Virus record (IMG/VR): IMGVR_UViG_3300047510_004223
Span: 1 to 33,301 of that record
Direction: 5' to 3' (one strand)
DNA length: 33,301 nt
Origin: a virus
Shown in pieces: positions 16,728-32,044 of this stretch. Made by a program: the position numbers and the translations under genes. The notes beneath the pieces are model-generated. The model searched no databases, had not been told where the DNA came from, and worked only from the letters and a program-made list of their open reading frames with translations. Every line of letters begins with the position of its first letter. The stretch's first letter is position 1.

Positions 16728-19295
16728 TCAGCCGCCTAGCGTGAATTCTATGTCGGCAAAGACGTAGTTTAGTGGGCCTGCAGGGAATGCGCGGACGCCG
16801 ATATCTACCTGGCGCGCATCAGCTGGATTTATTGCAACAACAATATCAGCATAGCCGGTTATAAGGCCCTGGGTTTCCATTGCACGCATGATCTTGTCAA
16901 CGGCAGCGGACAGCTCCTGTAGAATTGTTGGAGAATTAATACGGCCGACAAAGCTGCGCAGGCCATTGCGTAGTACGCGAACCACGTAATCGCGTACTTC
17001 TACGATTGAGATCTCTTCGTCCTCAGCAGCACCCGACGACGATGTCGTGATGCCGTGTACAATGCGACCGCCACCAGCTACTGGCTCCAGCAAGCATACG
17101 CCCGCTCCAATAAGGCTGTTGACGACGCTTGGACGGTAAGAGCGCGAGCGCGGGATCGAGAAGCCAGCAAGCGTCTTGTTTGTGGCCGGTTCAGCGATAA
17201 ACGACTTGGCGCTCAGATAACCTGCGAGAGCGGGCGCAGCAAAGTAGCCGGCAAGCACAACGTTCCCTGCGGCACCAAAATTACGCACAATCTGGTCCGG
17301 AGCTATATAAATGACGCGCTGAGTATCGCCGAATGCGTCCTGTACCGAGTAGTTCGCCAGGTCTTCGATGTCGCCATCGAGCACTTCTTGTGGATCGTCG
17401 CCCTGGATGCCCTCGAAGATGCCAACATTCTCTACTGCTGCATCCTCTGCGCCGGTCAGATTTTCCGGCAGAAGGCCATTGATTGCACCGCAGATCAAAA
17501 TGCGCTCCTGAGCATTTAGGATTGTGCTTTGCGACAGAACGTGGGTTTTGCCTGTTGCAAAAATATTGCTTATGGCCTGGCGCGGGAGTGGGACGACGAA
17601 CTGGACATCAACCTGCTCTGCTGCATCATAAGCAGATACCCAGTTTGTGTCAAAGTAATCAGCATCATCCACATCAACATACTGAATTCGTAGGCCTTTG
17701 CCTGCCGTCAGATGCAGATCAACTACGTCATCACTCAGGCAGAAGTATGCCGAGCTGCTGGCGGCTTCGCTGTTCAGCAGGAACCAGCGCAGGTCGCTGC
17801 CGCTCTGAGCAACCGAGCCAGGAACAGTTGGATCTGGGATCAGCAAAACCTTGGCTAGGCCGGTTGCGCCATAACCATCACCAACCTCTAGGATTTCATA
17901 GCGGCCAAAGGTATTGGTTGCGCCTGCATCAAAGATGTCGATGAAGTTGCCGACGTCGCTTGCAGAAAGGACGCCCGTTGTCGTCTGGAAGAAGGTGTCG
18001 CCGCCCAAGTCATAGACATAGCCGTCAGTGCCCTCTTGCAGCATCTCTAGAAGCATGACAGCGGTATAAGCATTTGTCTGCACTGCAGAGAAGTTGTTGT
18101 AGACTGCGAGCATTGAGTCGCCGTACGCGGTATCGTAGAAGTCTGCCTTGTCAAGGGTGCGGATCTGCTCCTCAGTGCCATCAGGATTTACTACAAAGAC
18201 ATTTATCTTTGAATCCATGTCCGGCGTACCGCCGCCATTGATTGCAAAAATGCAGTCTTCCATGTCCTGATCGCCAGTTGCGCCTTCAACTTCTGTGCTG
18301 AGAGGATTGTCTGCAGCCATCAGAAGCTCAGACGTCTGACGTGGAACCGGTGGCTTGCACTGCAGCGCGACCACAGAGGCTGCGCCATTTTCGAAGGCCA
18401 TGGCAGCGCCGAGGCTAAGCGTGTTATCTTCGCTTGGCTGACCATGCTTTGCATAAAGCTCGCTTGGCGAGAAGAACTCCTGGGGATCATTTACAAAAGA
18501 ATTTGCGATATACAGCGCATCAAGGCTGTCTCCGGCAACCAGCACTCCGCTGTTGACAGTAATAACGAACTTGTCGCCCACGTTAAATGGCTGGCTGCCC
18601 TCTGTGATCGAGAACTGCAGAATACCATTGCTATATGCGTTGCCATCCGACTTCCAGCGGATCTGGTCGCCAGCGGCATCGCGAACGGCACCGGTCACTG
18701 AGCCGGTTACCGAGAATATGGCGCGGGTCGGGATAATTGTTCCTGTACCATCCTTGGACACAGCCGTGCAGCGCACGGTCCACGTCTCTGGCTGTGCATT
18801 TGAATCCAGCAGCGAGGCGCTTGATACATCAAGCGTGCCGTTGCCATAGTTTGATGCAAACTTCTTATACAGAACTGGCAGGCCGCCTTCGGTACCAAAG
18901 TCCTGAAGGCTGGCACCCTGCAGCTGAACGCGGCCAGTTAGCGGGTCTACGCGGACGTCATAGCGTGAGTCAAATGCGTCTGCAGTAATCGCCTGCTCTA
19001 GAACGCGCAGAGCTACGCCATTCTTGCGAATCTCAGTGCGATTTGGAACCAGGTCAATCTGCGAAATCTGGAAATGCCGACCGTCTGGAGCGTTCGTGTT
19101 GCCGCTAAAATCGGGATTTACGCCATCCTGGCCGCCACCGCGGGCCTGGAATGCAAGAGTCTCTTCGGCACGGCCCTCGCCCATGATAAGGGCGGTACGC
19201 AGACCGCCAGCAATGCTGACGGTGTTGGTGCGGACTCTCTGTCTAACGAAAACGCCGGGGCGGACGCGAGTATTGATTCCTGGAATATTTGCCAT
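16728..19295 (-). CDS. Tail sheath protein (contractile)
   Basis: 855 residues from the ATG at 19295. The N-terminus (IPGINTRVRPGVFVRQRVR, VSIAGGLRTALIMGEGRAEE) and the C-terminus (ALPGS-like core ending VDIGVRAFPAGPLNYVFADI and EFTLGG) are typical of contractile sheath subunits, whose termini form the inter-subunit mesh. The C-terminal core includes INSPTILQELSAAVDKIMRAM and YADIVVAINPADARQ. Residues about 160-270 look like an inserted beta domain (QFSITEGSQPFNVGDKFVI), probably surface exposed. A TTG at 19307 would extend the protein by four residues (MGSL), but the ATG fits the expected MANIPG start and has GGGG six bases upstream. The gene is paired with the tube gene downstream. The upstream gap carries a promoter-like sequence. 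Confidence 0.92.
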   Translation of the reverse strand: MANIPGINTRVRPGVFVRQRVRTNTVSIAGGLRTALIMGEGRAEETLAFQARGGGQDGVNPDFSGNTNAPDGRHFQISQIDLVPNRTEIRKNGVALRVLEQAITADAFDSRYDVRVDPLTGRVQLQGASLQDFGTEGGLPVLYKKFASNYGNGTLDVSSASLLDSNAQPETWTVRCTAVSKDGTGTIIPTRAIFSVTGSVTGAVRDAAGDQIRWKSDGNAYSNGILQFSITEGSQPFNVGDKFVITVNSGVLVAGDSLDALYIANSFVNDPQEFFSPSELYAKHGQPSEDNTLSLGAAMAFENGAASVVALQCKPPVPRQTSELLMAADNPLSTEVEGATGDQDMEDCIFAINGGGTPDMDSKINVFVVNPDGTEEQIRTLDKADFYDTAYGDSMLAVYNNFSAVQTNAYTAVMLLEMLQEGTDGYVYDLGGDTFFQTTTGVLSASDVGNFIDIFDAGATNTFGRYEILEVGDGYGATGLAKVLLIPDPTVPGSVAQSGSDLRWFLLNSEAASSSAYFCLSDDVVDLHLTAGKGLRIQYVDVDDADYFDTNWVSAYDAAEQVDVQFVVPLPRQAISNIFATGKTHVLSQSTILNAQERILICGAINGLLPENLTGAEDAAVENVGIFEGIQGDDPQEVLDGDIEDLANYSVQDAFGDTQRVIYIAPDQIVRNFGAAGNVVLAGYFAAPALAGYLSAKSFIAEPATNKTLAGFSIPRSRSYRPSVVNSLIGAGVCLLEPVAGGGRIVHGITTSSSGAAEDEEISIVEVRDYVVRVLRNGLRSFVGRINSPTILQELSAAVDKIMRAMETQGLITGYADIVVAINPADARQVDIGVRAFPAGPLNYVFADIEFTLGG

Positions 19296-19345
19296 TAAAG
19301 ACCCCAAAGTGCTGGTTCAGCTCTAGCCTGTTAAAAAACATTAAT

Positions 19346-21125: not shown

Positions 21126-24100
21126 TCAGTATGTGGTAATGCTGAGAGCATCATTAATATAGCTATTTCCTACCTTGAGCCTGACGTACTCAAGACCCCA
21201 TCTATCATTGCTTGGAGAATCATGAGCCCTCCAGACAAGATAAATTCGCTCTCTTGTGGTTCCTCGATTGATGTCGACCGGATATGTGCCGTCAGCACTT
21301 AATAAAAGATTTGAAGAGGAATCCGCTCTACTGTATATTATCGTCCCCTGGTACAATGATCCGTTTGCCATGTCCTGATCATATCCGATATAAGCAGTAT
21401 GAGAAGAATTTACGAACCACCCACCCGCGTTACCAGTGTACGTGGCAGGTGATCCAGTTCCGACTCTTAGCTTAACTCCCTGGCTATTGACCAGCGCCAA
21501 CCTAAAGTTTTCCGGAAGAAGGCCATCAATCTTTCTGACGCTGACAGCAATCTCCCTCAGCTGTGGATACGAGCCAAGCAGATGGGTAATATCTATTAGA
21601 CCTATGTGTCCGACGGCAGCAGAGTTAAACGAACCAAACTCATCAGTAAAATCTAGTGAAATCGGTACGTCAGTAGTGCCGCCTGGGAGTTCTGCCTGAT
21701 AAATATAGTGAGCAGGAAAAAGAGGAACCTCTATATATCTCCATGTTACACCAAGACTATCCCTTTTAAGGGCAAACCTACTAGCCACAGTTAGATCTTC
21801 GTCGACTGTAAGGTCATTTCCTACGCTTGCGTCATTGTCTACGACTAGGCCATTTGTAGTCCGCAGTGTCCCGTTCACCCTCGCAACAAATGGAGATGTA
21901 CTAGGATTTATATTTATGAATTCTGCATTTAAGTCTAGCTGTGTGCCAGACATATTGATGCTAGTCGACCCGCCATTAATCAGTATTATTTCCGAGTCCA
22001 TCTGTATTTTCGATGGAGTGGCCGACCCTGAAGATGTTAGTGATATCTCTGAATAATTAGAATTTCCATATGAGCCGATAAGCGCTGTCGCGAAGTCCGG
22101 CGCATCAGCCGTATAAAGGGCCACGCTATCCGTAGCATATATATCGATGTTGTCTGAGGCCATGTTTACTGCTGTCGATGGTGGGCCTGCAGATATCTCT
22201 CCTATCGCAATAGTAGTATTCCCAGGAATAACTCCTATATCTATATTAGACTGAACTGCAGAAGCTACAGTAGAAGAGCCTATCGATACGCTTCTTGATT
22301 CAGAGCTATTTGCACTAGCTATGCTGACGTCCGCGCCATCCACAACCGTGTCGCCTTTTATATTGGTCGTGGAAGTTCTGTCTGGTTTTCCTATGTTGAT
22401 GGATGGACTGCTTAAATGAATCCCATCGCTTCCTGCGTATACGTCCGTCCTACCAATCAATGATGAGCCAACCTCTACAGACGAGTATCCTGGCCCATTG
22501 TTCGCACCAATGCTGATTGACCTTGTTATTCCTGATGGCAAATCGTCGCTACCGATATTAATTGAGTAGTCGCCAACAGCATTGCCCATATCTATGTTTA
22601 GGTCAGCTGGCGAGGTCTCGATACTCCAGCTGTTGCTGGATCCGGATGCTATATGAACCGAAGACTGGCGACTGTCGACAGGAGGCTGAGCAATACCGGC
22701 AACAACCTGCACGTATGCAATCCGAGCATGCGGCGAGGCAGGCCACGAAGCAGATATCTGAAAAACACCGGACAAATCGATATACAGGTAGTTGTCAGAG
22801 TACGGCAACACTAGACCAGCATATCCGCCTCGTCCGGAGTTTATGTTATCTGATCCAAATGTGATCGGAGACTCAAATCTGCGACCATTGACATATGCTA
22901 TAACTGGGCCATAAACTCTTATTGCATTGGCAGCAAGACCTGGATTTGTCTCTGTTAGTCCTCCAGAAAATATGCTACTCCCTCTGTTATCCAAAGTCGA
23001 CGACGTCTCTGGATCTCGAGCACTATCTGCCAGACTGCTTCCTGCTACGTTACCGAAGTAGCGCTTGTCGACTGGAGCACCCAAAACAGCTGAGCCGTCC
23101 CACCAGTGATAGCCAAGAAGCAACTTGCCAGCATTTCTAACCGAGGCCAGAACGCGATATAAATCTGTACCACTGCCAGTAGGAGTCGAAGAAATATAGA
23201 CGTCTATCCACCCACTGTAGTCAGACGTATACAGGCGATGTGTTGAGCCAAGCACCGGGGTAACCGGCTCGCCTAGCGCCCAAGATAGCGCTATGCCATC
23301 ATATGTAAGCTGGTATCCATTTGAAAATACTCCGGTAGAAGGCGTATTTGGATGGTCATCAGAAACATCCACTATTCTTATAAATCCTATGCTGAGCGGA
23401 TCGGATGAGTCTGGGCGCTTGCGAATGCGATATGAAGCGCCAAGATCGCCAGACGCATCCACATGCGACTGCAACAGTCCTCGATCAGCGAAGCCTGACA
23501 AAGAAGGCACTGAAAGACTTTGACCGCCAATATAACCAGATATTGTATTTCCGCTAAGAACATACCCGGATCCCACTGGCAATGCCCCGGAGGTAATGCT
23601 TAGACCCGAAATACCCGGCTGCAAAGATGTTGCAGAAGAAGATCCAACTATACCATCCACGCCACTTGTACTAACAGATCCAACGCCAACCGATTCTGTG
23701 ATGTTGTCAGCAACAATCGAAATAATCTCTGGTCCGTCATACAGGAATCCAAATACATTTGGGATTGCTATATGTGGGTCAGTGGATGCAGGCGATGGCA
23801 TGCTTAGCTCTGAGAGAATCGCGCCATCCAGCACTGACTCGCCGCCACCACGCAGAATGGAGGCGACGCCTGTAGAAAACTGCACTTCGCATGTGTCGAC
23901 AAGCAAGCCGGCTATCCTTGATGTTACCGTCTGCCCCAGGTCTACTATTGTGCCAGACTGGCGGTACGACCTTTTAATGCGAAGATCGTTTATTGCAGCA
24001 TGGCCACTTCTCGTAGCGAAGCCATCCCGAGCAGAAGTAACGGATATGTCCGTTATTTCCAGGGCAGAGACCGTGAGCCCGAATTCGCTGCCGCTGCCAT

Positions 24101-27100
24101 TCCATGTAAAGCCTACTCCAGAGAACAGCGAGTCGTTAATACTGCATGAGTTTGCTGCAACAATTATACTACCACCGTGGGCAGAGGAGCCCGTGGCGGG
24201 TGTAGCGGTAAAGCTGCAGTCAGCAATCCTGATAGCTCCATCGGTAGTATTGCACTGTAGTGAGAATGTACCGCCACGGCTACTGCAGTCCTTGAAAACG
24301 AGCGAGCTCAGGCCGGATGATCCGAGCACAGAGATACTTGCATTCTGAGTAAACTCGCAGCCCTCGAAGACATATGTTCCGCCAGTTACTCCGGCCAGAT
24401 CAACCGTAACTGAGCTTAGTATGAGATTTGATGCAGTAAAACTCGAAGTCCCGATTATAAGCGTACTTGCGTGCGGTTCAGGTCGTCCCGAGAAAGTGTC
24501 TGATCCGACTGCACAGTCAGATGAAACACGAAGCTCACGCAAATATCCGTCTATCTGGATTGAGGCAGGTGCGGTCAGGCCCGCAATAGTAATATCATCA
24601 GCGGACGACGATGCCCGGCGACTAACGATACGTAGCCGCGCCCGCTCCTCAAACGGGTATGCATTCAGGTAAGCTATAGCGGCCTGCATGTTGGAAAAGT
24701 TGCCAACGAAATGATTTGTCAGATCAAGAACGGCATCTACACGCTCGTCGATATTGGCTATATTATAAGCAATGCTTAGGCTCGTTATTGCAGGAGTAGA
24801 AGTCCTGGCAACAGAAAGCAGCGGGACAAGCGAGCCGGCAAAGCCCTCTATTATCTCAGATAACGAAAAGTCTGTTTCGGCTACTACCTGAAACAACCCT
24901 CCCACGTTTATACACACGAAATATGTACCATTAACAGGCGGGATAGCGACATACTGCGATGTCTGTTCGACGCGAACGCCGTCTACGTATGCAACTCCTC
25001 CGTCGATTAGCACCATCCGTGTGCCCATTGGATAATTAGGAGAAACACTGGTTGCATCAACGTCGTCAGTGATGACGCCAAGCCCGCGTACTACGCCGCT
25101 GCTGCGCAACTCGGCTAGTGGCGTCTCGACGTATGCCTGAGTGACATCTTCTCGCAGCTCATCTAAACCAAGGCTGCCAAATAGCCGCTTATCAGCTATC
25201 GCCCTAATACGTCTGTCGAAAAAGCGCACAGAAGCAATCTCAAACATTTCCTCTTCATCTGTGTGATCGTAGAACTCCAGCTGTGTACTGCCGGTGCTCG
25301 CGGTGCCGCTGGCCTGCAGATCGACCCATGACATGCCAGTGCGGTCATATACGCGTACTTTGCCAAGAAGGCTATCACGAATTGCCTTTGCATTCGATGC
25401 TGCCGCCCCATTAAACTGCAGGGAAAGTTGGCCAGCAGACGGAGATGTGCTAACCAGCGTCTCGGTACCAGCAAGCCTAGAGTCAGAGACATCTACTATC
25501 TCTATACCTGAAATGCCTTCCTGCGCAGAGGCACGCATAAATGCGCCAGTAAACCCATCCCGGTCAACGAATATCTCACTAATGATTGCGTTGGGTGAGC
25601 CATCTATATCTGCAAGCGACACAGATGAAGCATCGATCCTTATTACTGCGGCAGGATCGGCAGTAAGCGCAACGCCAACCTGAACAGTGCTGGGTCCGAC
25701 TGCAGTTATCTGATAAGAGCCTATTTCTGTGCTCGTTGCAGTAGAAATGACGTGAACCACATGTCCAGGCACTATGCCAAGATCTGACACAGAACCGGTT
25801 ATTCCGATAGTACTCCCAGATATCGTTGCGGCGCCAGAGTAGTAGTTTGCAAAGTCCTGATGATTTATGCCATTAACAGAGAAGCGTCCGGTTATAGTGG
25901 GATATGAGCGGAATCCAACTACGCCGGCGCCATTGCTGCCAAAGCCGCATAGTTCGCTTCCGCGCGCAGCCGCAGCTGTGTCGCTGGTTATCTGCAGCCA
26001 GTAATCAGCCGAGTCCGACCAATTATGAATGATAGCAATCTCGCTGCCTATAACATAAGCAGCGGCAGGCACTGCGTTTCCAGCTGCCGCACTGCATAAA
26101 ACATAATTTATTCTCTCTGCTATGCTAGCAGCGGTAACTTTTAGAACGGGCGTTACTCCAGTTCTATCTAGGTGCAGGCTGTCTACTATGACGCTCTTAC
26201 TGGTGCCCGCACCAGTGGCAACCTGCATATGAAGCTCGCATGAAGCATCAATGAAAAGCGGATTCAGCCCTAGGCTCACTACTTTTGCAGCATTTGGCCT
26301 AGCGAGAAGCAGCGTATCTGCAGTAGACGTTCCCGGGAAAGTTGCCGCAGCCAGGGCAGATTTTAGATTTGATACGCTTGATTTACCAAAGATAGCCGCC
26401 TGTATAGCTCCAGACGCAACTGGCAGTGGCCTAAAAAGCTCAAGCTGGGTAGAGTCAAGAGTGGGCTTTGATCCTGTTCCAACTCTAGGTCCAACCTCGG
26501 CAATTACATATGCCTCGTTGCCGAACACAAGCACTTCACCGCGGACAACCTTGAAATCCCTGAGCGTATCTGATCCAAAGTCCACAACATAGCGCGAGAT
26601 AACCGTTGCAGCCGTAGTGCCGCTAGATGGATATAACTGCAGATTTCGATTCCAGCCTAGTGGATCATTCTCCCATGCAGATATGCCATTTGAATGAGCA
26701 TCATCTAGGTGCTGTCGCAGTTCTTCGCCGCGTAAAGCCTCTAGCTCCTCGAGAGCCTCCTGAACATTGCTTGCCGTTATATAACTAAAAGAGCCCGCAA
26801 CAGAAATATTCGATGCAGCGTGCGCAGCGACAGCAGAGGGAGAAGTGTGAGCCGCAAGGGCATCTGCTAGCTCTCTAATCGCATCCGCTACCGTCGTACC
26901 AGAGATCCCTGTTAGCCAAGGCGGAGTCGAAGAAGGATAAGCAGAGTCAAGAAGAATCTGATCGGAGTCATGAGGGAATGCTCCGCTTAGGTGGTGGCTC
27001 GCAAAGTCTGCGATCAGCTGTGCCAGCGCAGACTGCAGCACCTGTATGTCTATGTCATTTGAAGTGATCTGATCACGCAAGAATTGCGTAGAGAAGTCTA

Positions 27101-27386
27101 GTGCGAGCTTTGATTCTTCAATTCCCGCCGCCGCAGCAACCTGACTATTGACTATAGCAGCCACAACAAGAGCGCTGGACTTTAGTGTGCCGTCATCGTT
27201 AATTGATACTGCCAGGCGCGCCACCAGGTCGGCAAGGCTTCCCTGGGGATCGGCTCCGATTGCTCTCTGGACGGCAAGCACTGCAGCCTTGAGAGCATTA
27301 ATCACTTCGCCACTTATCTCTGTTGATCCATCTATAACAGATGGCAGCGAAGAATCATCATCTAGATTTGATGGGTATTTGCTCAT
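21126..27386 (-). CDS. Giant fibre/appendage protein A (2086 residues) with beta-helix and [IV]x[IV]G repeat shaft
   Basis: The N-terminal domain (DGSTEISGEVINALKAAVLA, RAIGADPQGSLADL) is shared with the protein encoded immediately upstream. Residues about 205-235 contain the common fibre motif SNVQEALEELEAL, followed by HLDDAHSNGIS. Residues about 915-1190 look like a parallel beta-helix with regularly placed Cys (FEGCEFTQ, FKDCSS, IADCSFT). Residues about 1595-1830 carry short repeats such as INIG, ISIG, VEVG, VSIG, IDIG and IAIG, typical of a trimeric fibre shaft. The last ~230 residues (after LTVDEDLTVASRF) form a separate beta-rich tip, a candidate receptor-binding head. ATG start at 27386 overlaps the upstream TGA by four bases (ATGA). 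It may be a tail fibre, a collar fibre or a decorating appendage; no depolymerase active site can be named from sequence alone. Confidence 0.82.
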   Translation of the reverse strand: MSKYPSNLDDDSSLPSVIDGSTEISGEVINALKAAVLAVQRAIGADPQGSLADLVARLAVSINDDGTLKSSALVVAAIVNSQVAAAAGIEESKLALDFSTQFLRDQITSNDIDIQVLQSALAQLIADFASHHLSGAFPHDSDQILLDSAYPSSTPPWLTGISGTTVADAIRELADALAAHTSPSAVAAHAASNISVAGSFSYITASNVQEALEELEALRGEELRQHLDDAHSNGISAWENDPLGWNRNLQLYPSSGTTAATVISRYVVDFGSDTLRDFKVVRGEVLVFGNEAYVIAEVGPRVGTGSKPTLDSTQLELFRPLPVASGAIQAAIFGKSSVSNLKSALAAATFPGTSTADTLLLARPNAAKVVSLGLNPLFIDASCELHMQVATGAGTSKSVIVDSLHLDRTGVTPVLKVTAASIAERINYVLCSAAAGNAVPAAAYVIGSEIAIIHNWSDSADYWLQITSDTAAAARGSELCGFGSNGAGVVGFRSYPTITGRFSVNGINHQDFANYYSGAATISGSTIGITGSVSDLGIVPGHVVHVISTATSTEIGSYQITAVGPSTVQVGVALTADPAAVIRIDASSVSLADIDGSPNAIISEIFVDRDGFTGAFMRASAQEGISGIEIVDVSDSRLAGTETLVSTSPSAGQLSLQFNGAAASNAKAIRDSLLGKVRVYDRTGMSWVDLQASGTASTGSTQLEFYDHTDEEEMFEIASVRFFDRRIRAIADKRLFGSLGLDELREDVTQAYVETPLAELRSSGVVRGLGVITDDVDATSVSPNYPMGTRMVLIDGGVAYVDGVRVEQTSQYVAIPPVNGTYFVCINVGGLFQVVAETDFSLSEIIEGFAGSLVPLLSVARTSTPAITSLSIAYNIANIDERVDAVLDLTNHFVGNFSNMQAAIAYLNAYPFEERARLRIVSRRASSSADDITIAGLTAPASIQIDGYLRELRVSSDCAVGSDTFSGRPEPHASTLIIGTSSFTASNLILSSVTVDLAGVTGGTYVFEGCEFTQNASISVLGSSGLSSLVFKDCSSRGGTFSLQCNTTDGAIRIADCSFTATPATGSSAHGGSIIVAANSCSINDSLFSGVGFTWNGSGSEFGLTVSALEITDISVTSARDGFATRSGHAAINDLRIKRSYRQSGTIVDLGQTVTSRIAGLLVDTCEVQFSTGVASILRGGGESVLDGAILSELSMPSPASTDPHIAIPNVFGFLYDGPEIISIVADNITESVGVGSVSTSGVDGIVGSSSATSLQPGISGLSITSGALPVGSGYVLSGNTISGYIGGQSLSVPSLSGFADRGLLQSHVDASGDLGASYRIRKRPDSSDPLSIGFIRIVDVSDDHPNTPSTGVFSNGYQLTYDGIALSWALGEPVTPVLGSTHRLYTSDYSGWIDVYISSTPTGSGTDLYRVLASVRNAGKLLLGYHWWDGSAVLGAPVDKRYFGNVAGSSLADSARDPETSSTLDNRGSSIFSGGLTETNPGLAANAIRVYGPVIAYVNGRRFESPITFGSDNINSGRGGYAGLVLPYSDNYLYIDLSGVFQISASWPASPHARIAYVQVVAGIAQPPVDSRQSSVHIASGSSNSWSIETSPADLNIDMGNAVGDYSINIGSDDLPSGITRSISIGANNGPGYSSVEVGSSLIGRTDVYAGSDGIHLSSPSINIGKPDRTSTTNIKGDTVVDGADVSIASANSSESRSVSIGSSTVASAVQSNIDIGVIPGNTTIAIGEISAGPPSTAVNMASDNIDIYATDSVALYTADAPDFATALIGSYGNSNYSEISLTSSGSATPSKIQMDSEIILINGGSTSINMSGTQLDLNAEFININPSTSPFVARVNGTLRTTNGLVVDNDASVGNDLTVDEDLTVASRFALKRDSLGVTWRYIEVPLFPAHYIYQAELPGGTTDVPISLDFTDEFGSFNSAAVGHIGLIDITHLLGSYPQLREIAVSVRKIDGLLPENFRLALVNSQGVKLRVGTGSPATYTGNAGGWFVNSSHTAYIGYDQDMANGSLYQGTIIYSRADSSSNLLLSADGTYPVDINRGTTRERIYLVWRAHDSPSNDRWGLEYVRLKVGNSYINDALSITTY

Positions 27387-30300
27387 AGTTTAACTACCGC
27401 CCTTATATTCCCTATTGTTACAGTGGCAGAACCGGCATTTCGTGTTATCTTTAGCGCCGCAGTTTTGGCTGGTCCGACAAACGGAGCAGTGCCAGGTATT
27501 ATACTTGCCGATGCATAACCCACAGCCGACGGCGCAAGTGTCACGCTGCCAACAAGAGTGGCCGTGGTTGAAGTAGTAGGAATAGTATATAGCTGCATAA
27601 GTACTGAGCCAGACACAATGCTGAAGTTGAATCCGGCAGCAATTTCAAGCAGCTCTCCAGATGGCACATCAACAGGAATCCACGCCACTGCGCCATTTGT
27701 TGATGAATTTATGCTTGTAGATGATGTGTTCCAATCAGTTGGATCAGGCAACAGTGCCTTAAATGGGCTTAGCGCATAAATATTCGTCGTGCCATGATTG
27801 TTTTCAAATGTATTCGCATCTGCCGGCAAATCCGTACCATCCGCCGTGCCGCCGGCGATATTATTGCCGGTTATTCTACACCCGCTCTGTCCGGAGCCGG
27901 CACCACGGAAAATCACTCCAGTGACGCCTTCGCCAACTATATAGTTATTGGAGCAGACAACATTATTCGGAACAATCTGAATGGCATTATCAACTGCACT
28001 GCCAGTGGTATCTGCCAGCTGAAGTATATTCGCATCCAAGGAATACTTAATGCCTGAAAGAGGGCCGTCATCTACAACTACGATGGCCTGAGCCGGTGCC
28101 GGTGGCAGATAGCTACATACATTATTACTGAATTTTAGAAAGCCGTTGCCTGACGAGAGGACGCCAAGCGTCAACAGACTTCCGGTGCCCTCGCCATAGA
28201 ATTTATTCGAGCTAACATTATATCCAGGATAGAATAGGAATGTCGAACTAGAAGACGAATCTAGGCTCTCAAATACATTGTTCGATACTGCATATCCTGC
28301 ATAGATAGGCAGGGGCGAATCAGAGACACCGTAGTCAAATATAAACTGAGATGCAGAAATGTCATTATCGTATACTGATGCAGAGCTTAGCTGAACAAGT
28401 GAGTCGCCGGATATTGTAATCCGATTTCCATTTATCCTTGCAAGCGCCCGCGCATAGCCTGGATCAGTAAAAGCAAGGGCCCTGTTTATGTTAAATACTT
28501 GTAGCTGAGTGGCCGTTGTGGAAATATCAACCGTATTGCCAGCAAGCTCAAAGTTATAGCCCATGCCAATTTTAAATGAGCAGTCAGGCATGCTGCAGTT
28601 CGCTAGGCGTAGCCACGCGTCAGAATTCCAGTATACCAAGTTTCCAGCCGCGCTGGTCCGCGAAGACTGTGATATGCTAGATGTTATCCCTGAAAAGGTG
28701 CAGTCCGAGATATTCAGGCCAACAGAAGATGTTGTCAATAGGCCAGTGGCAGCAATAAAGAAGTCTTCAAAAGCCATGCCAGAGAAAGTGCACTTGCTGA
28801 TAGACGCATTAACTGCCGATGGTGATGATGTGGTATCGGTAGAGTAGAACGCGCGCACCTGCGTCTGTGATCCGCCGAAAGTGCCATAGAAAACAGAATT
28901 GCTCATGGCCACGTTAGTTGTGCCCGACACACCTAGTGCGTTACCATACAGCCTATAACCATAAAAATCTGAAATTGTTGCGCCGGCAATCGACGAGCCC
29001 GATGCTGCCTTTAACACACCACCAAAATTGCTGCCTGAGCAGGATGAAATAGAAATATGTTCTGCTATTCCTGTATTGCTAAACAATGCGCCACACTCCT
29101 CGAAAGCGCAGGAATCGAGCATGACGCTGTCAACTGTACCAGAATTGGCTACAATACTGTGCGTCTGAATCTGCGCAGTAGAAATTGAACCTGATCGCTG
29201 TGCCGAGAAGTGCTCCAGCGACACAGAGCCACAGACTCCAGAGAGCTCTATCCAATCAAACTGCGTAGAATCAAACACAGCCAAAGCATCTCTAAGCAAG
29301 ACATCGGACGCACTTGTGATGGCCAGCGTGCCACCAGATGCAAAGGATAGCGTGGCCCCAGGCGCAGATCCGCAAACACGAACCCCTTCGCCAGCAATGC
29401 TCAGTGTCACTATGCCCGAACCACTTGAGCCGGTAAGCAAACAGCTGAAAAAACTCAGCGAAGAGTGGTTTGCTAGGGAAATAGCACGGGTAGAAATCGA
29501 TGTCGCGAAAATGTTGCCGGTATCCAGAGCAGAGATACCAGTAACTGTCGGCGTAGTTACCGTTGTGATGATTTCGCCAATAGAGATAGATGAACCGGCT
29601 GCAAGCGACAGCGTTCTGCATGTCAGGGAAAACTGTCCCTCGACACTGACCGCAGCAGGCACAACGACCTCAAGAGCTGTTGACTGGTCTGCCTGCAGTA
29701 CTACCTTCTTGAAGCCAGCCGCAGCAGCTATGAGAAGTGCGCCGGCGATATCGGGGCAATGATGGGTGCCTGCCGAGCCGCCAACCAGCAGACGATCAGT
29801 CGGTGGCACTGCCAGTGAGAACAGGCGCAAATCAATGACTGAAAGCGCGCCATCGTACGCGACTCTAGCAAGAGGTATTTCTCCGCGCGAAACAATATTC
29901 TGGAGAGCTGTGCCTGCGCCAGACTCAAGTCCAAGTCTAAGTGAGCCGCCCAAATCTACATAAAGGTTGTATGTTCCATACGCAATCGGAATAGAAGTAA
30001 AGCTTATATCGGCAGCGGCAAGACTCTTAATCACGCCACCAATCAGGAATCTTGACGCCGATATTTGCAGAGATGCGCCCGAAACGAGTGGCGCATCTGC
30101 CGAAACAAAGCCGTTCCAATGGTTACTCGGATATTCAGCAATGGCCTCTGATAATACGTCTGTCGCAAGGGCGGCAACGCTCACAAGGCCTATGTTGCGC
30201 GTATCTGCGGGAAATTCTGCAACAAGGCCGTCGGACCAGTAGCTGCATACTTTCTGCAGGTCATCGTTTTCTACGGAGGCAAAGACCTCGAATGTAGCAG

Positions 30301-32044
30301 TGACTGGAGACGGCGGGGCCAGAGATGCTACCTCTATCAGAGCAGCTCCCATACCTTTTGGAGCATGCAGCAGCACTGCACCAACATAGCCCTGCGCGAG
30401 CTGCACTGCGTTGCCAGAAACAGTACCGCTTGAAATATACAAAGACCTCACCGAACCAGTACCTGTTATAGATAGAGAGTAGGTACCTGGCTGCAGCGAG
30501 CACTCCGCTATTCTCAGACCGCTTATCGGAGATACGGTTATGTTCGCGCGAACACTTGTGCTTGGAATGCCAGCAGAATTAACAAGCACTTCGTAAGTAG
30601 TGCCCGATGAAGCGGCACCAATCGCAACAGAGTCTGGCAATACAGAGTATGAAAAAGACCCTGCTGGAATGGGCCTATTTAGCGTTACAGTACTCCCTGT
30701 AACAGCAACAACCTGGTACGTGCCGGCTCCAAGTCCTGTGTGATTCGTTATGTGAACCAGGGAACCTACTGCAACAGGGGATGATACCAAGAGCAGAAGC
30801 GATGGACCTGATAGCGTTGCAGTGCCGCTAGCTAGCGGGACCCAGCTGTCAATCGGAATACCATCGGTAACTGCCACAAAATGCGAGATTGGCTGTACGT
30901 ACTGACCAACTACCGAGGAAAAACCTAAAGCACCTGCCGCTGATGCAATTGATGGCTCACGAACAGCAATGTATCCATCAGGAGTGTTGTGCTGTAGCAC
31001 GATTTCATTGCCAAACTGGAATGCAGTAACAAGAGCGCCTACAGCCTTAAATGTCTCGTTAAATTTTACTACGGCGCCGCGCAAGCGATTCTCGCTGCCA
31101 GCAGGATATGGACATGAATTCAGGCCTGTTACACTGGCAGTATACAAGGAATAACCGTCGGAGTAATCGACCAATAATGCCGATGCGCCGGACCCGAGAC
31201 CAGCAGGGTTTGCTCCGCGAGATATAAGCGTAGCGTGATTTATTCCGCCAATTTTTATGCGCGGCTGGCCGCTTAGTGGCTGAAATGGTACAGCGGCGAA
31301 TGAAGCTGCATTTACGGCGCCCTGTCCACCTAGGTAGACATAGCCATCAGACGATATGCCGTTTGAATGGGCGGTGTCCAGATGTCGATTTACGCGATTA
31401 ATAAAGTTGCTGTCGATCTCATCCAGCGCCCCGCCAACGCTCGTGGCGCTGAGATTTGAGCCTGGGGCTGGAGAGTACGAGATGGCATCCGCGTCGTGCG
31501 CACCAACAGAGTCAGCAATATGGCTGTTTAGCTCGGCATAGACGTTCTGTAGCGCTGTCTGCGCGTTTGTTCCTGCGGCAACCGAAGGAGAAACAATAAT
31601 ATGCTGAGCGGCGTGCCTATAGTCTAAGCCCGTAATGTGGCTCGCCAGCTGAGCGACTGCGCCGCCAACCGAGCCCTGCAGCGCCTCGACATCTATTGAA
31701 AGATCTGTAATTTGATCCTGCAGCAGCGACGTTGAGACGTCCAGATTTATTTTTGATTCATCAATAGCAGCTGTGGCACTGACATGTGCATTGGTAATAG
31801 GAGATGACAGCAGCCAGGCAGCTGCAATCGCAGAAGAGTTAAGAGTGCCATCAGGATTTATGCTGACATCAAGGCGGTCAGCCAGGCTTGCCGCAGTGCC
31901 TTGCGGATCCGTGCCGAGCGCCCGCTCAATCGACAGAATCGCATCTTTCTGTGCATTTATAGCGTCGCCCGCAATCTCGGTAGACCCATCGATTACGCTT
32001 GGTAGCTCGGCATCCGTATCTATCTCGGTTGGAAACTTAGACAT
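27383..32044 (-). CDS. Giant fibre/appendage protein B (1553 residues) with pectate-lyase-like beta-helix
   Basis: The N-terminus (DGSTEIAGDAINAQKDAILS, RALGTDPQGTAASLADRL) is clearly paralogous to protein A: by eye about 45 of the first 70 positions are identical. Further shared modules include HLDTAHSNGIS and a GTYNLYVDLGG region. Residues about 770-1415 look like a right-handed parallel beta-helix with PbH1-style rungs (ISKCTFSG, ISDCTFSG, AVSNNVFESL, NVSSNKFYGEG, CRITGNNIAGG), the fold of pectate lyases and tailspikes. The last ~120 residues form a beta-sandwich-like C-terminus (ELLEIAAGFNFSIVSGSVLM). ATG start at 32044, seven bases after the previous TGA. A glycan-binding or glycan-cleaving tailspike role is plausible by fold, but no catalytic residues can be assigned. 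Confidence 0.82.
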   Translation of the reverse strand: MSKFPTEIDTDAELPSVIDGSTEIAGDAINAQKDAILSIERALGTDPQGTAASLADRLDVSINPDGTLNSSAIAAAWLLSSPITNAHVSATAAIDESKINLDVSTSLLQDQITDLSIDVEALQGSVGGAVAQLASHITGLDYRHAAQHIIVSPSVAAGTNAQTALQNVYAELNSHIADSVGAHDADAISYSPAPGSNLSATSVGGALDEIDSNFINRVNRHLDTAHSNGISSDGYVYLGGQGAVNAASFAAVPFQPLSGQPRIKIGGINHATLISRGANPAGLGSGASALLVDYSDGYSLYTASVTGLNSCPYPAGSENRLRGAVVKFNETFKAVGALVTAFQFGNEIVLQHNTPDGYIAVREPSIASAAGALGFSSVVGQYVQPISHFVAVTDGIPIDSWVPLASGTATLSGPSLLLLVSSPVAVGSLVHITNHTGLGAGTYQVVAVTGSTVTLNRPIPAGSFSYSVLPDSVAIGAASSGTTYEVLVNSAGIPSTSVRANITVSPISGLRIAECSLQPGTYSLSITGTGSVRSLYISSGTVSGNAVQLAQGYVGAVLLHAPKGMGAALIEVASLAPPSPVTATFEVFASVENDDLQKVCSYWSDGLVAEFPADTRNIGLVSVAALATDVLSEAIAEYPSNHWNGFVSADAPLVSGASLQISASRFLIGGVIKSLAAADISFTSIPIAYGTYNLYVDLGGSLRLGLESGAGTALQNIVSRGEIPLARVAYDGALSVIDLRLFSLAVPPTDRLLVGGSAGTHHCPDIAGALLIAAAAGFKKVVLQADQSTALEVVVPAAVSVEGQFSLTCRTLSLAAGSSISIGEIITTVTTPTVTGISALDTGNIFATSISTRAISLANHSSLSFFSCLLTGSSGSGIVTLSIAGEGVRVCGSAPGATLSFASGGTLAITSASDVLLRDALAVFDSTQFDWIELSGVCGSVSLEHFSAQRSGSISTAQIQTHSIVANSGTVDSVMLDSCAFEECGALFSNTGIAEHISISSCSGSNFGGVLKAASGSSIAGATISDFYGYRLYGNALGVSGTTNVAMSNSVFYGTFGGSQTQVRAFYSTDTTSSPSAVNASISKCTFSGMAFEDFFIAATGLLTTSSVGLNISDCTFSGITSSISQSSRTSAAGNLVYWNSDAWLRLANCSMPDCSFKIGMGYNFELAGNTVDISTTATQLQVFNINRALAFTDPGYARALARINGNRITISGDSLVQLSSASVYDNDISASQFIFDYGVSDSPLPIYAGYAVSNNVFESLDSSSSSTFLFYPGYNVSSNKFYGEGTGSLLTLGVLSSGNGFLKFSNNVCSYLPPAPAQAIVVVDDGPLSGIKYSLDANILQLADTTGSAVDNAIQIVPNNVVCSNNYIVGEGVTGVIFRGAGSGQSGCRITGNNIAGGTADGTDLPADANTFENNHGTTNIYALSPFKALLPDPTDWNTSSTSINSSTNGAVAWIPVDVPSGELLEIAAGFNFSIVSGSVLMQLYTIPTTSTTATLVGSVTLAPSAVGYASASIIPGTAPFVGPAKTAALKITRNAGSATVTIGNIRAVVKL

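Follow-up and report, generated by a model that had tools for sequence, protein, structure and literature searches.

Branched tailspikes of the Ackermannviridae (CBA120 TSP1-4, S117) combine conserved N-terminal assembly parts with exchangeable receptor-binding ends, and an origin of these tailspike sets by duplication and recombination has been proposed (PMC11414711). The jumbo phages RaK2/phiK64-1 and phiKp24 carry many beta-helix tailspikes attached via N-terminal domains (PMC10253068, PMC9700779), and in Bacillus phage 0305phi8-36 paralogous domains recur across several virion proteins, which the authors interpret as a possible shared means of anchorage in the virion (PMC2147016). Anchors held in common, with ends that can be exchanged, are already known from a few cultured phages; here we describe the same principle in a group of uncultivated large phages, for a protein family not found in named phages. 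The two genes concerned, P0002 and P0001, likely encode paralogous, co-translated spikes or fibres of the virion, with a shared plug, changeable distal ends and an origin in an old duplication.

The window, which is the whole stretch of DNA analysed, is a 33,301-bp IMG/VR virus record with a contractile-tail module on its minus strand, including the sheath P0006 (PHROG tail sheath match), the virion structural protein P0007 (PHROG match), the sheath-initiator-like P0015 and the baseplate-J-like P0016. Its source is an uncultivated large tailed phage with a contractile tail, and the closest named phage by sheath and baseplate was Bacillus phage G (~29% identity; 23% of the sheath and 99% of the P0016 fragment covered). 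P0004, P0005 and the tail sheath follow immediately downstream of the P0002/P0001 pair (Table 1). P0004 contains a carboxypeptidase-regulatory-like domain (Pfam PF13620, above cut-off) and is found 3′ of the pair in many relatives, and residues 174-258 of the sheath are ~43% identical to structural proteins of Pseudomonas/Stenotrophomonas phages, likely representing a shared inserted domain. P0003, with a run of hydrophobic residues near its N-terminus and a segment resembling a coil, may be a partner or a membrane-active protein; its homologues are found immediately 5′ of the pair in the window's clade as well as L015/L018, and single-copy loci that include upstream sequence gave no match at E 1e-4, except for the truncated L013.

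Table 1. Coordinates of the gene pair, its parts and associated genes (positions in the window, unless a locus of a relative is named)
Feature	Positions	Strand	Basis
P0002, putative upstream spike gene (u), 1553 aa	27383..32044	-	ORF; 70% full-length orthologue in 371,675-bp contig
P0002 1-130, putative docking segment	31655..32044	-	Homology to P0001; u/d clades not recovered
P0002 131-232, three His-pair repeats ending HLDTAHSNGIS	31349..31654	-
P0002 593-732, module (GTY-VGG)	29849..30268	-	HMM E 4e-27
P0002 ~760-1420, predicted beta-helix, tailspike-depolymerase-like	27785..29767	-	AF2 + Foldseek; weak profile matches
P0002 ~1430-1553, predicted C-terminal beta-sandwich tip	27386..27757	-	Model; CBM16/61/22/4 matches
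P0001, putative downstream spike gene (d), 2086 aa	21126..27386	-	ORF; junction sequence; 66% full-length orthologue
P0001 1-130, putative docking segment	26997..27386	-	Homology to P0002; discordant trees; model
P0001 131-237, three His-pair repeats ending HLDDAHSNGIS	26676..26996	-
P0001 712-861, module, first copy	24804..25253	-	HMM E 6e-37
P0001 ~880-1350, predicted beta-rich shaft	23337..24749	-	Weak profile matches; identity profile vs L003
P0001 1421-1561, module, second copy	22704..23126	-	HMM E 2e-26
P0001 1562-2086, variable distal part	21129..22703	-	Identity to L003
P0003	32052-33089	-
P0004	20450-21106	-
P0006, sheath	16728-19307	-
Extra fibre-like gene	L007:4647-7541
Extra fibre-like gene	L004:1523-3580
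Extra fibre-like gene	L013:4324-7368
Extra fibre-like gene	L014:4804-8862
Extra fibre-like gene	L016:6293-8632
Two adjacent plug-tagged genes	L050:2341-6816
Protein with three docking-profile matches	L048:9536-11311

The initial annotation had reported two adjacent genes of 2086 and 1553 residues with a homologous N-terminal domain, and both ORFs are present, joined by a 4-bp overlap (ATGA). Residues 1-237 of P0001 align with residues 1-232 of P0002 at 43% identity (blastp, E 4e-45), with 44 of the first 70 residues identical (about 45 had been counted by eye), and P0001 443-838 aligns with P0002 341-708 at 24% identity (blastp, E 9e-7); the similarity is far above chance. Since the N-termini are homologous by sequence, the prospect of unrelated N-terminal folds, raised in the annotation, is moot. 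The C-termini differ completely, as had been observed, with no distal segment common to P0001 and P0002, and the genes are tandem paralogues with a homologous N-terminus and unrelated distal ends. The evidence fits the two options put forward originally, either two appendages on one docking site or a hetero-complex.

Part of the putative docking segment is helical in an AF2 model of P0001 1-870 (helices 26-43, 51-58 and 100-132), which has a mean pLDDT of 77, with values mostly of ~35-75 within the first 240 residues. In the His-pair repeats that follow, residues H131, H139, H180, H189, H226 and H231 (P0001) were invariant among 25 sequences, and one may guess at a metal site. The motif HLD-AHSNGIS is shared as described, but rather than a separate module it is the third of these H-x(4-9)-H units, and ends the contiguous N-terminal homology. 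The shared part gave no convincing match in named phages, PDB, Pfam or PHROG. The P0001 1-870 model, in which residues 1-240 are partly of low confidence, had no gp10-like, TSP-head or other PDB match at E ≤ 0.001, and no profile match to the gp10-like XD docking domain was found in the N-terminal half either. Nearly the whole model was matched in BFVD by A0A6J5RS40 (Foldseek E 7e-34, 21% identity), a metagenomic protein from an uncultured Caudovirales phage that is annotated as 'Parallel beta-helix repeat' and is a probable database member of the P0001/P0002 family.

The second motif noted originally, GTY-VGG, is likewise common to both proteins, and proved to be part of a ~147-aa module that was present in 51/51 family proteins long enough to hold it, in nearly all of them as a single copy. 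P0001 has a second copy, and a full second copy was otherwise found only in its orthologue at locus L003. Using phmmer with the window protein, the second module of P0001 was nearest to upstream-type modules; as the tree support of 90/80 came with a long-branch warning, its derivation from an upstream-type gene is only suggested.

A profile search of viral contigs identified 43 loci, with the family carried by about 40 uncultivated contigs of up to 481 kb. An adjacent pair on the same strand was present in 16 contigs (the window and 15 others), with a spacing of -4 to +45 bp. About twenty other contigs had one full copy in the stretch examined, some of them truncated; the contigs are metagenomic and often fragments, and a second copy missing from a fragment need not be missing from the genome. 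The fibre genes adjoin P0005 and sheath homologues in most loci. The nearest relative, a contig of 371,675 bp, has both genes (P0001 66% and P0002 70% identity), together with sheath and P0005 at 92-93% identity. There was no match in named phages when P0001, P0002 and three distant members were compared by tblastn with 50,697 phage records, GTDB genomes yielded no confirmed family member (both results at the search sensitivity applied), and searches of the full fibres against Pfam, PHROGs and PDB sequences gave weak or chance matches only.

The distal part of P0002 contains a predicted beta-helix, as expected of a tailspike, based on AF2 and Foldseek. The model of residues 402-1553 was moderately confident (mean pLDDT 66; monomers were modelled), and its best PDB matches were tailspike depolymerases: 8iq9 (E 7e-6), 5w6h, 8oq1, 9k4a and 2x85, with K2-2 TSP matched at a Foldseek E of 7e-6. 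These tailspike matches ranged from E 7e-6 to 4e-4 with low global TM-scores of about 0.1-0.2, and the likeness is therefore one of local fold. Weak profile matches of the beta-helix region to polygalacturonase and pectate lyase (E 1.5e-3 to 3e-3) were also detected. Foldseek matches to CBM16/61/22/4 (prob 1.0, E 3e-3 and weaker) covered roughly 120-150 columns, and from the strands of the model and the match lengths we place these carbohydrate-binding-like matches at the tip. The P0001 shaft is probably beta-helical, and is mostly 70-82% identical to that of L003.

Identity between P0001 and the downstream protein of L003 is mostly 70-94% up to ~residue 1475 and drops to 12-44% over ~1600-1875, with the tips still homologous (21-72%, and 43% over the last ~290 residues); with the distal tip of P0001 as query, the L003 orthologue was the only match. 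Between L004 and L005, similarity is lost ~100 residues past the module in both proteins, and the last 100 residues of the upstream protein are conserved at 76%. L026 is closer to L027 (97%) than to L029 (84%) over residues 1-125, and closer to L029 (56%, versus 34-44%) at 101-400 residues past the module, where L024 and L027 remain 82-87% identical. These conflicting similarities indicate that distal ends have been swapped between phages downstream of the module. The initially proposed exchange of exposed ends is thus supported between phages, but for the two paralogues no distal segment common to upstream and downstream proteins was found; the second module of upstream type within P0001 is the sole hint, a weak one, of a transfer from upstream to downstream gene.

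For phylogenetic comparison, the upstream (u, P0002-type) and downstream (d, P0001-type) groups were named by gene position before tree building. Trees of the shaft (residues ~245-900) fully separated u and d copies in both pair-bearing clades tested, and because the shafts sort in this way the u/d duplication is judged to be old. Independent recent duplication in each phage was rejected by the same u/d clades, and within-phage pairing of shafts was rejected in the three phages tested (p-AU 0.003, 0.0003 and 4e-88). The first 130 residues gave a different result. Holding the upstream copies together was rejected in the second clade with a p-AU of 1.9e-81 (six phages), or 1.3e-14 when the truncated L047 was omitted, and in the window's clade with a p-AU of 0.029; for residues 1-130, these values reject purely orthologous inheritance of the entire gene, at a p-AU of 1e-14 or below in the second clade and, weakly, in that of the window. 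Residues 131-245 of the window's clade already recovered the u and d clades (95/95). The 130-residue boundary was set after viewing identity by segment, and several segmentations were tried. Over residues 1-125, u-d identity was 74% within phages versus 56% across phages in the second clade (permutation p 0.0012), and 62% versus 56% in the window's clade (permutation p 0.0002). Over residues 241-800 the corresponding values were 25 versus 23% and 23 versus 22%, and the within-phage excess ends near residue 130-140. With u/d clades in the shaft trees and docking segments that are preferentially alike within a phage, the duplication of a shared attachment part suggested by the initial annotation is upheld.

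The within-phage likeness of the plug would fit either gene conversion or co-evolution with one socket, which are compatible and both agree with a common partner; the effect of conversion could also be imitated by strong selection exerted by a single socket. Co-evolution with one socket as the sole cause has some appeal for the window's clade, where the excess is mainly at the amino-acid level and identical residues use the same codon only slightly more often (42 versus 37%), but we consider it rather unlikely overall, given the end of the excess near residue 130-140 and the raised third-position identity in the second clade (49 within versus 41 across phages, p 0.007). The synonymous codon excess in L028 and L047, with same-codon use of 58-60% versus 44% across phages, favours conversion in these phages. 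The window's own u and d docking segments are 57% identical without a codon excess (32%), so any conversion there would be old. Among the papers listed by a literature search on concerted evolution of tail fibres, none was relevant judging by title and abstract.

Other proteins, 204-1337 aa long and encoded far off in the same contigs, also begin with a stretch matching the first ~60 residues, and several of these have tail or tail-fibre PHROG matches. Three such genes are present in the 371-kb relative, and a 481-kb contig has five tag matches, the weakest of which is doubtful. Some loci have an extra fibre-like gene that lies 5′ of the full-length gene or genes and has only the first ~60 plug residues in common with them; the window ends short of the place where this gene would be expected. 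Two plug-tagged genes are adjacent in divergent orientation in L050, from a contig of 480,838 bp, and a single protein of L048 has three partial docking-profile matches. We tentatively suggest, as a reading that has a reasonable chance but is not the favoured one, that the 60-130-aa plug is a general connector borne by several appendage genes in different parts of the genome, that recurrent conversion within the genome keeps it fitted to its socket, and that appendages can in this way be gained when the tag is joined to another fibre gene. If true, within-phage plug similarity would suffice to predict, without data other than sequence, the proteins that use a common socket.

In the arrangement that we propose, an old duplication gave rise to the tandem pair, and residues 1-130 would form a docking plug for a single socket of the particle. 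The proximal shaft would consist of the His-pair repeats together with the domain reaching to ~residue 700, and the ~147-aa module would be a joint beyond which the distal ends change. With its tailspike-like beta-helix and carbohydrate-binding-like tip, P0002 probably binds or cuts a surface glycan, whereas P0001, with a beta-rich shaft, a second module and another tip, probably reads another ligand. Both proteins would presumably be present in one virion, as trimers, with conversion or co-evolution with the common socket preserving plug similarity inside each phage as the distal ends diverge. It is improbable that the two form one branched hetero-complex in which one protein is fixed to the particle and carries the other, like CBA120 TSP4/TSP2: the genes are adjacent and overlapping, the longer of the two proteins in the window's clade is d, and branched complexes are known from other phages (PMC11414711, PMC10253068, PMC9700779), but the same type of N-terminal plug is present on both proteins whereas the CBA120 anchor domain is on TSP4 only (PMC10253068), and the P0001 1-870 model lacks a gp10-like or TSP-head match in the PDB at E 0.001. 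The single full copy in many contigs also argues against it, as the plug can then probably serve alone. Less probable still is that they are appendages of the neck or collar, and not host-recognition spikes of the baseplate, as the position directly upstream of P0004, P0005 and the sheath is not decisive, given that in T4 the short fibre and whisker genes lie upstream of neck and sheath genes, and hypervariable distal ends with tailspike-like folds better fit contact with a receptor or glycan.

Read as two spikes or fibres sharing one plug, the pair resembles the CBA120 system in that TSP4 (5w6h) is among the top Foldseek matches of the P0002 distal model, and differs in having the same plug on both paralogues, rather than an anchor on one protein. 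As its N-terminal half has no gp10-like XD or other PDB match at E 0.001, we do not class the pair within the branched tailspike systems or with the anchor domains of 0305phi8-36. Unlike the Ackermannviridae tailspikes, the pair also has no sequence similarity to named phages. For RaK2/phiK64-1 and phiKp24, D1-like or T4 gp10-like domains have been reported, whereas the plug described here is ~130 aa, partly helical, without a PDB match and present on both tandem members. Compared with 0305phi8-36, the domains shared here are N-terminal tags on fibre-like proteins, and sequence comparison by the named-phage tblastn gave no match. The pair is an unusually clear new case of a strategy already known, by which phages are equipped with several tools for host binding. 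It adds a sequence-only test, in which docking segments of paralogous spikes evolve together and shafts are inherited separately; where a genome but no virion is at hand, 'same socket' becomes a prediction that can be tested, and host-recognition proteins become easier to spot in phages that otherwise have genes without any match.
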